Below are positions 22,922-63,417 of a stretch of 64,000 bases of DNA, piece by piece. The stretch spans positions 1 through 64,000 of the forward strand of contig NZ_AQGQ01000001.1 in the NCBI RefSeq assembly GCF_000388115.1. The letters run 5' to 3'. Source of the DNA: Aeromonas molluscorum 848 (GTDB lineage Bacteria > Pseudomonadota > Gammaproteobacteria > Enterobacterales > Aeromonadaceae). A program made the translations under genes and the position numbers. The number at the start of each line of letters is the position of its first letter. Position 1 is the first letter of the stretch. The notes beneath the pieces were generated by a model that saw nothing but the letters and a program-made list of their open reading frames with translations, ran no database searches and was not told the DNA's origin.

Positions 22922-23215
22922 ATGTCATTGAACTGGCAGTTGATTGGAATGGATGAGGCGAGCGGCACCTTGTTGCTGGCCCACCACAATCTCGATTGGG
23001 ACAACTTCCCGGCCCTGGCTGCCGGTCTGCTGGATGAGTGGGAATTGGAGCTGCTCTTGCAAGATAGCGGCGCTGATCGTCACAGTTGGCAACTTGGCTT
23101 TGAAGGTACGCGTATCTGGCTGCATTTTGAGCATTACAGTGGCTGCTGGCTCAGCGCCGATGACGAGGAGGGGCGTGCAACGCTGCGCTGGCTGAGTCAA
23201 CGGTACAAGGATTGA
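22922..23215 (+). CDS. DUF3630 family protein
   Basis: A 97-residue acidic protein (MSLNWQLIGMDEASGTL..) with no signal peptide or membrane segment. The core WDNFPALAAGLLDEWELELLLQ, followed by strands WQLGFEGTRIWLHFEHYSGCWL, resembles the DUF3630 family of small gammaproteobacterial proteins. The ATG at 22922 lies 6 bases from GGGA; another ATG at 22916 is possible. It follows selO by 55 bases on the same strand. No function can be assigned. Confidence 0.65.
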   Translation: MSLNWQLIGMDEASGTLLLAHHNLDWDNFPALAAGLLDEWELELLLQDSGADRHSWQLGFEGTRIWLHFEHYSGCWLSADDEEGRATLRWLSQRYKD

Positions 23216-23281
23216 ACTATGGCGCGGGGGGCGTATAATGCCGCCCCTCGATAACTGCCGTATTAGCGCCATGGTGGTGCT

Positions 23282-23312
23282 ATGGGTTCCCTAACCCCAT
23301 TAACCAAAAAGG
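23282..23312 (+). promoter_or_regulatory. preQ1-I riboswitch controlling yhhQ
   Basis: P1 stem ATGGG (23282-23286) pairs with CCCAT (23296-23300). The P1 loop TTCCCTAAC contains CCT (23290-23292), which can pair with AGG at 23310-23312 to form the pseudoknot, and the joining strand TAACCAAAA is A-rich. Layout and sequence follow the Thermoanaerobacter preQ1-I aptamer. The AGG is also the Shine-Dalgarno of yhhQ, 7 bases before its ATG, so bound preQ1 should block translation. Confidence 0.85.
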
Positions 23313-23319
23313 TCACAAT

Positions 23320-23994
23320 ATGAACCTGACCCCTGCTCAGCACCAGACGGCGCTGACGCGACTCGCGTTGTTCCACATACTGATCATCGCCAGCAGCAAC
23401 TACCTGGTGCAACTGCCGATCACCATTTTCGGTTTTCACACCACCTGGGGAGCGTTCAGCTTCCCGTTCATCTTCCTGGCCACGGATCTCACTGTACGGA
23501 TCTTCGGCGCCGGTCTGGCGCGCAAGATCATACAGAGGGTGATGATGCCGGCATTGCTGGTCTCCTATGTGCTGTCCGTGCTCTTCTTCGAGGGCAGTTA
23601 TCAGGGCATAGCCAATCTGGCGACCTTCAATCTGTTCGTGGCCAGGATTGCCTTGGCCAGCTTCATGGCCTATCTGATCGGCCAGTTCATGGACGTGATA
23701 GTGTTCAACCGGCTGCGGCTGCTCAAAGCCTGGTGGGTCGCACCGGCGGCATCGACCCTGATCGGCAATCTGGTCGATACCCTTGCCTTCTTCAGCATCG
23801 CCTTCTGGCGCAGTGACGATCCCTTCATGGCGGAGCACTGGGTCGAGATAGCGACCGTGGACTATGTATTCAAGCTACTGATAAGCCTTGGTTTGTTCGT
23901 ACCGCTCTACGGCGTGTTGCTGCGCTATCTTAGCCGCAAACTGGTGGGGGATCCCAATCCTGCTGCCCTGCAGGGTGAGGCGCGCAATGCCTGA
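23320..23994 (+). CDS. yhhQ: Queuosine precursor transporter YhhQ
   Basis: A 224-residue inner-membrane protein of the COG1738/YhhQ family that imports the deazaguanine precursors preQ0 and preQ1 for tRNA queuosine synthesis. About six membrane segments are visible, beginning with FHILIIASSNYLVQLP. Characteristic segments are TTWGAFSFPFIFLATDLTVRIFG and IGNLVDTLAFFSIAFW. Its leader contains a preQ1-I riboswitch that overlaps the ribosome site, independent support for the substrate. Confidence 0.92.
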   Translation: MNLTPAQHQTALTRLALFHILIIASSNYLVQLPITIFGFHTTWGAFSFPFIFLATDLTVRIFGAGLARKIIQRVMMPALLVSYVLSVLFFEGSYQGIANLATFNLFVARIALASFMAYLIGQFMDVIVFNRLRLLKAWWVAPAASTLIGNLVDTLAFFSIAFWRSDDPFMAEHWVEIATVDYVFKLLISLGLFVPLYGVLLRYLSRKLVGDPNPAALQGEARNA

Positions 23995-24022: not shown

Positions 24023-24052
24023 ATTGGCCACCTCAGGGTGGTCAATTTTTTT
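24023..24052 (+). terminator. Terminator of yhhQ
   Basis: Stem ATTGGCCACC/GGTGGTCAAT with one mismatch, loop TCAG, then seven T. Confidence 0.85.
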
Positions 24053-24118: not shown

Positions 24119-24228
24119 GCGTTCCGGGATAGACCCCATCAGTTCCAACATGGTGACTTCTTGTGAAAGCACGACATTGCTCACATTGCTTCCAGTTATA
24201 GGGCCAGTTCTTCTGGCCCTCTTTTTTT
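24119..24228 (+). ncRNA. ryhB: RyhB small regulatory RNA
   Basis: Iron-starvation Hfq-dependent sRNA that down-regulates mRNAs of iron-rich proteins. The central block from 24164 to 24193 contains GAAAGCACGACATTGC followed by TCACATTGCTTCC, which is identical to the conserved core of E. coli RyhB. It ends in a terminator with stem AGGGCCAG/CTGGCCCT and loop TTCTT, then CTTTTTTT. A Fur box overlaps the promoter. Length of about 110 bases is estimated from the -10 box and terminator. No protein-coding frame of merit lies here. Confidence 0.94.
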
Positions 24229-62501: not shown

Positions 62502-62591
62502 CCAGCAGAGTGGGTTTAATTACGCAGAGATGAGCGGGGCGGCGAAAGTCGCCTCTTGCTACGGGGTTGGGTATCTGTGGCGAAAACCCAT

Positions 62592-62863
62592 AAAGATGGG
62601 GGCGACATGCGTCGCCCCCGATAGTCTTATCGTTCATATCCGTGAACGAAGTTGCTCCCTGCAATCCCTGACTATACCTCTTCCTTTAGGTTTCCCCTTC
62701 CCAATCCTTTGGGGTGTCCTTTAGCCATCATGGCCTGACGAGTCATCCATTCCCGTCGCACTTTCTCCATCCTGGGAGGTGTCCTTTACCACATCCTGTG
62801 GTGAGTCCATTTGCCCAACCCTGGCAGCCAATCTTCCTGATTGACTTCGACTGCGTCCGTGCA
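62592..62863 (-). ncRNA. csrB: CsrB-like small RNA (CsrA-sequestering)
   Basis: Read on the minus strand, about 270 bases hold 17 GGA motifs, many as AGGA or GGGA. Several sit in hairpin loops: CCACA-GGA-TGTGG, CTCC-CAGGAT-GGAG, AATC-AGGAA-GATT and TCGTTCA-CGGAT-TGAACGA. The segments AAAGGACACCTCC and AGGGAGCAAC also occur in E. coli CsrB. It ends in a terminator, stem GGGGGCGAC/GTCGCCCCC at 62598-62619, then ATCTTTAT. A promoter TTGTTA (62892-62897), 16 bases, TATAGT (62870-62875) precedes it. Such RNAs titrate the translational regulator CsrA. Confidence 0.88.
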
Positions 62864-63417
62864 GGAGTAACTATAAGGATTTTCGACTGGCTAACAACGC
62901 GATCTTGAAAAACGTTTTACCCCCTTGCTTTTCTATTAAGTCAACTCTAGTTAATTGTTGTTTTAAATCAATTGCATATCGTTTTTTATTGCGGTTTATA
63001 AGATGTGTCAATCCGACTATGCCTGTCTGGTTTTTGGCTTATCGCTCACACCTTCAATGGCGAATATCTCACAAGAAGCTCAAACCAGTCTCAGTCGAAC
63101 TCATCCGAATGGATTAAGCCGCAGGCTCCGCGTCTGTTGGCACTGATCATGGCGGCGAGGGCCCCCGATGCAGCCCTGAATGTGGGGGAGAGGCTTGTCT
63201 CCCGGACACGAACTCAGCACTGTCAGGGCGGGGAGCTAGGCCAGCCCCAGACATTGCCTGCAAAAGTGGAGAAGCTGGCCAGCGCAGTCCCTTCTGTTAT
63301 CTGCCGCCATAGTGACAAGAGGAGAGGGGTTACAGACGGGAGGATGGTGACTGCCGGTCGGCAGGGCGAGCAAGCGTCAGTGAAGCGGGCATGGCTATAG
63401 GGAGATGGGGTAAAGAA
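62864..63417. other. Upstream region of the CsrB-like RNA, no gene seen
   Basis: About 550 bases with no convincing gene. The part next to the RNA is AT-rich and contains its promoter. Two TGTGAG half-sites on the minus strand (63045-63050 and 63068-63073) lie about 190 and 210 bases upstream of the RNA start, the distance at which UvrY/GacA acts on E. coli csrB, but the second half of the GacA palindrome is poor. A plus-strand frame of 131 codons at 63005-63400 has no ribosome site and no family look. Confidence 0.5.

Follow-up and report, generated by a model that had tools for sequence, protein, structure and literature searches.

The leader of yhhQ in Aeromonas molluscorum 848 carries a preQ1-I-like element of 31 bases at positions 23282-23312 of the window (the whole stretch of 64,000 nucleotides that was analysed, from contig NZ_AQGQ01000001.1), and this element is almost certainly a type III preQ1-I riboswitch controlling yhhQ. 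The assignment draws on the anatomy, gene, conservation and P1 covariation analysed here, and on the E. coli member of the subtype for the probable ligand, fold and direction of control. The subtype, its gene context and its translational OFF behaviour in gammaproteobacteria are already published, as passages of PMC10622847 and PMC11625349 describe. The only unfamiliar part of the leader is an upstream hairpin, here named P0, which the published models lack as far as we have seen in the passages of these sources.

The element and its gene

The features of the leader, in window coordinates, are as follows.

23212-23239, + strand: sigma-70-like promoter, TTGAAC-16-TATAAT (consensus scan, 10/12)
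23264-23282, + strand: putative accessory 5' hairpin P0, 23264-23270 paired with 23276-23282 (covariation, fixed-register test)
23282-23286, + strand: 5' strand of P1, ATGGG (sequence; P1 covaries in other families)
23287-23295, + strand: pyrimidine-rich loop TTCCCTAAC (position-by-position comparison with passages of PMC10622847 and with the E. coli leader)
23290-23292, + strand: 5' strand of P2, CCT, the anti-Shine-Dalgarno (complementary to AGG at 23310-23312)
23296-23300, + strand: 3' strand of P1, CCCAT (sequence, covariation)
23301-23310, + strand: linker TAACC (23301-23305) and A tract, L3 (sequence)
23309-23312, + strand: AAGG, 3' strand of P2 and Shine-Dalgarno sequence (sequence; corresponds to A27-G30 of the E. 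coli aptamer)
23320-23994, + strand: yhhQ, queuosine precursor (preQ0/preQ1) transporter, 224 aa (NF008406, TIGR00697)

The boundaries of the element were read from the sequence. Its tail AAAAAGG occupies 23306-23312, and seven bases separate the final AGG from the ATG at 23320. The sequence-only reading had described a 31-base element with a P1 stem, a C-rich loop and an A-rich tail, whose last pseudoknot strand, AGG, is the ribosome site; its coordinates and parts are right on the sequence, the CCT of the loop being complementary to an AGG placed at that distance from the start codon. It had also put the element before a preQ0/preQ1 importer gene, and yhhQ is confirmed by NF008406 (an NCBIfam equivalog; 373.2 bits, cut-off 252) and TIGR00697 (200.1 bits, cut-off 50.95). 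The preQ1-I reading itself gains support, since anatomy, gene, conservation and covariation agree.

According to passages of PMC11625349, type III is found almost exclusively in Pseudomonadota and is marked by UU, AC and AAGG; the window element shows all three. The UU follows the P1 5' strand and the AC precedes the P1 3' strand, both within a short pyrimidine-rich loop; a tract of 4-5 A is followed by an AAGG/AGG that pairs with the loop (P2) and is also the Shine-Dalgarno sequence; and the element is located before yhhQ in a member of the Pseudomonadota.

The promoter hexamers recur among the genus leaders listed (with TTGCAC in three, L035-L037), and transcription would be expected to start near 23246. 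Tgt (607.9 bits) and QueF (413.2 bits) are both present in the genome with scores over cut-off, so preQ1 is probably made and used by the organism. QueC gave partial matches only in this draft genome, on different contigs, all below cut-off and one at a contig edge; the gene has presumably been split by the draft assembly. Downstream of yhhQ lies an RyhB-family small RNA (24165-24226; 69.1 bits, Rfam), with a terminator-like site at 24023-24046 between the two, and a CsrB-family RNA occupies 62588-62884 on the minus strand (91.8 bits, Rfam). Around the start codon, at 23311-23331, TGACC in yhhQ codons 3-4 offers a pairing partner for GGTCA in the Shine-Dalgarno region (-4.6 kcal/mol, z -1.48); this pairing would be a weak competitor of P2, and its TGACC end differs in some genus leaders (L013, L036, L037).

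The Rfam preQ1 model search that the sequence-only reading had proposed as a check failed to return the element: RF00522 was without a match in the window even at E 10, its gathering cut-off of 39 bits was not reached by the window element, and only chance Rfam matches fell at the leader. The same model at E 10 matched none of six yhhQ leaders (the window's own, that of E. coli and four others). Its silence on the E. coli leader, which is of the proven type, lowers the model's reach and not the element's identity; RF00522 (PreQ1) has the ligand class proposed for the window element in common with it, and the element lies outside the model's reach. Across the whole genome at E 10 the model gave a single match of 13.8 bits, located elsewhere, and the same loose search produced matches in each of the 14 control genomes, one of which had a match over cut-off. 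A custom covariance model was built from eight 31-base leaders outside Aeromonadaceae, these being the eight rows of that length among the 40 in alignment A1 (see below). With E-values that are to be taken as rough, it recovered the element in the window at 40.3 bits (E 9.8e-7), where the runner-up scored 9.9 bits, and in the 4.24 Mb genome as the sole strong match (E 6.5e-5), where the runner-up scored 17.3 bits. The genome contains a single instance of the consensus pattern and none of its backward control. Nearest-neighbour folding of the element was unremarkable (z -0.07), and energy folding of element and leader reached no significance against shuffles, as is expected of a pseudoknot with a 5-bp stem.

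Conservation of the element and pairing changes in P1 and P2

yhhQ is present in 36 of the 37 genus genomes, the window's own included, and the one genome without it is 80% complete. All 36 genus leaders carry an identical 31-mer; an element invariant within the genus yields no covariation there. In the rest of the family the element was found in each of the 34 leaders fetched, G038, whose matches are all distant, and G060, which has a fragment, having been left out of that search. The order search gave a match in 74 of 119 genomes, with six genomes that have only distant matches (24-34% identity) left out. Among the close matches outside the family, 55 of 61 leaders fit the regular expression for the element and three more carry variants; L039-L041 were left out as repeats of genus leaders. 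Six of the 251 sequences failed the expression: among the failing leaders, L120 and L127 carry variant elements, L066 has the stem-loop followed by a far longer tail, and the 331 bases taken for L111, L133 and L136 contain no element. Scanning the species collection with a strict pattern gave at least 120 stretches, and among the matches listed yhhQ lies directly downstream in 116 of 120. Three of the four stretches without yhhQ among these matches end 23, 62 or 168 bases after the element. L246, also among the matches listed, fits the strict pattern and continues for 676 bases downstream without yhhQ.

Alignment A1 holds 40 distinct other-family leaders, from which duplicates and the long-linker leaders L110 and L112 were left out; it was used for P1 only, because MAFFT left-justified the A tract. 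In these leaders 92.5% of the P1 cells are paired and 33 are double-change cells, and the 15 unpaired cells of 200 all fall in the outer two pairs. In the slid controls, paired cells peaked at 68.0% (slide -1) and double-change cells at 10 (slide +3). None of 500 shuffles reached the P1 covariation score; two of the five shuffle measures were weaker, being reached by 11/500 and 341/500. Since most of the inner pairs are set in advance by the regular expression with which the leaders were chosen, the free evidence comes from the outer two pairs, plus one change in the third. Covariation of P1, taken as a criterion for type III, was accordingly found in the outer pairs only, across the 40 distinct leaders from other families of the order.

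Two of the P2 pairs are invariant in 54 other-family leaders, L051 (with a 10-base loop) having been dropped from the anchored counts. The third pair, formed by the first base of CCT, is C-G in 44 of these leaders, U-A in seven, U-G in two and A-G in one, where only AGG and AGA tails had been admitted; no C-A occurs at this pair although the expression admitted it. The seven U-A leaders (L068, L069, L070, L099, L100, L102 and L107) have the loop TTCTCT and the P2 strand AGA, with an AGG 0-3 bases downstream of that strand. They belong to two families (six leaders and one) and possibly represent few events. The double change in the AGA leaders suggests that P2 pairing is maintained even when the paired strand is other than the Shine-Dalgarno core.

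A hairpin abutting P1

P0 adjoins P1 directly, and A23282 could belong to either helix. In 15 distinct genus sequences all 105 P0 cells are paired and nine are double-change cells, with A-U replaced by G-C and U-A by G-C or C-G. The slid controls contain at most one double-change cell, and the slide of -3 still pairs 85.7% of the cells. The covariation score and the percentage paired were each reached by none of 500 shuffles; the number of pairs with double changes was reached by 204/500 and that of pair types by 353/500. The hairpin upstream in the window is stable (-10.5 kcal/mol for 23246-23283), and P0 folded alone ends 0-1 base from P1 in 15/15 genus leaders and in 29/35 others.

The occurrence of P0 was scored by a fixed-register test, which replaced a constrained fold that had mixed in alternative pairings. 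An abutting P0 is present by this test in all 20 distinct genus leaders (4.5% of shuffles), in three of 29 leaders from the rest of the family (6.4% of shuffles) and in none of 54 from the rest of the order (2.1% of shuffles). In the species collection, among the matches listed, 22 of 98 distinct non-genus leaders have it, against 7.2% of shuffles; the 17 of those 22 with a listed title are 16 from Pseudomonas/Halopseudomonas and one from an unclassified gammaproteobacterial MAG. Not all Pseudomonas leaders pass the test; L168 and L190 are examples that do not. Selection on the P0 loop only (C, then A(A)TNN and C/T/G, then GG or GA) picked out 41 of 194 loci, which gave 34 distinct non-genus leaders. 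Of the 204 cells in the six flanking pairs of these leaders, 181 are paired, 40 of them with double changes; the controls have 73/170 (slide -1) and 84/204 (slide +1) cells paired, and no slide exceeds 16 double changes. The innermost pair and the loop, being part of the selection, prove nothing.

Being a near-palindrome just downstream of the promoter, P0 might instead be a DNA operator for a transcription factor and not an RNA hairpin. We regard this as unlikely, because loop length differs by one base between species and the arms change in a compensating manner, G-U pairs included; a one-base change of the loop together with stem covariation fits an RNA hairpin better than an operator in DNA.

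As an RNA hairpin, P0 would most likely either hold P1 in place or insulate it, or else shield the message at its 5' end. That P0 and P1 are kept end to end suggests coaxial stacking on P1, and a role as a 5' protective hairpin is just as plausible. We tentatively propose that the yhhQ leaders of Aeromonas and of the Pseudomonas type may form an extended type III preQ1-I riboswitch, in which P0 would tune folding, affinity or message stability. The P0 of such a possible extended form would be a covarying hairpin that stacks at a distance of 0-1 base from P1 and often has a C-G pair closing its loop, A(A)UNNY. Should P0 belong to the switch, these leaders provide a very small aptamer in a naturally occurring version with two helices, in which the effect of stacking on P1 could be measured. 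No P0-like hairpin is described in the passages of PMC10622847 and PMC11625349 or was met in the literature search, a comparison made outside McCown 2014, where type III is defined.

Proposed switch and known preQ1-I riboswitches

By analogy with the E. coli riboswitch, we infer that the element would act as a compact translational OFF switch for yhhQ in Aeromonas, in both ligand binding and regulation. When preQ1 is plentiful, it would bind between P1 and P2 by pairing with C23295, one ligand to each RNA as in type III, and the H-type pseudoknot would close. AAGG at 23309-23312 would then be buried against U23288 and 23290-23292, which would keep ribosomes from initiating on yhhQ. With little preQ1 available, P2 would open and the importer YhhQ would be made.

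YhhQ salvages both precursors with an apparent preference for preQ0, according to passages of PMC10622847, which might suggest that the riboswitch senses preQ0 rather than preQ1. This is very improbable: the same passages report that the E. coli type III aptamer is about 138-fold weaker for preQ0 than for preQ1, and the window keeps the pocket bases of that aptamer. Still harder to credit is a strong ribosome-binding site whose hairpin is incidental and which does not respond to a ligand, for although AGG is a Shine-Dalgarno sequence and thermodynamic folding is unremarkable, the loop TTCCCTAAC, needless for such a site, is invariant in 36/36 genus leaders, P1 covaries in other families, and seven leaders keep the P2 pairing with AGA and have AGG 0-3 bases further on.

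A preQ1-sensing type III element here would confirm a published riboswitch subtype in another genus, before its usual gene. Since the standard RNA-family model misses the subtype in the six leaders tried, such yhhQ leaders can stay unannotated. The literature search found no paper joining preQ1-I, riboswitch and Aeromonas; of two that mention preQ1, riboswitch and Aeromonas, PMC12548931 deals in its passages with matters other than this element, and PMC9605947 is on Bacillus subtilis cells.

Among known systems, the Tte type II preQ1-I riboswitch resembles the window element in its H-type pseudoknot, its AC before the P1 3' strand and a similar pocket, as described in passages of PMC10622847 and PMC11625349; it differs in a larger, purine-containing loop and in burying less of the Shine-Dalgarno sequence. 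The closest comparison is with the type III preQ1-I riboswitch of the E. coli yhhQ leader, which has been crystallised and tested in cells, repressing a reporter 6.1-fold with preQ1 (passages of PMC10622847). Its P2 pairs are U11-A28, C10-G29 and C9-G30, preQ1 joins U7 and A27 in a triple, the specificity base of the crystal construct is C14, and AAGG serves as the Shine-Dalgarno sequence (same passages). The E. coli leader (L264), whose RefSeq record has no RNA feature in the stretch, reads TTGGGTTCCCTCACCCCAATGGTTAATCAAAAAGG, including the linker GGUUAAUC named in PMC10622847. The window matches it at all loop and tail bases for which the passages of that paper give a contact with preQ1 or the Shine-Dalgarno sequence, with C23295 corresponding to C14 and U23288 to U7. 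Common to both are yhhQ, the loop TTCCCTNAC, the A tract, the AAGG Shine-Dalgarno sequence in P2 and a 5-bp P1. P1 is ATGGG/CCCAT in the window and TTGGG/CCCAA in E. coli, and loop base 12, which can be any of A, C, G or T in the relatives, is A in the window and C in E. coli. At the place of P0 the E. coli leader forms no more than a weak hairpin of 5 bp (-2.5 kcal/mol) at one base from P1, which lay outside the fixed-register test. The linker is TAACC in the window in place of GGUUAAUC; its five bases equal the linker length of the E. coli 33-mer variant, which according to passages of PMC10622847 binds preQ1 at 30.2 nM, against 57.9 nM for the wild type.
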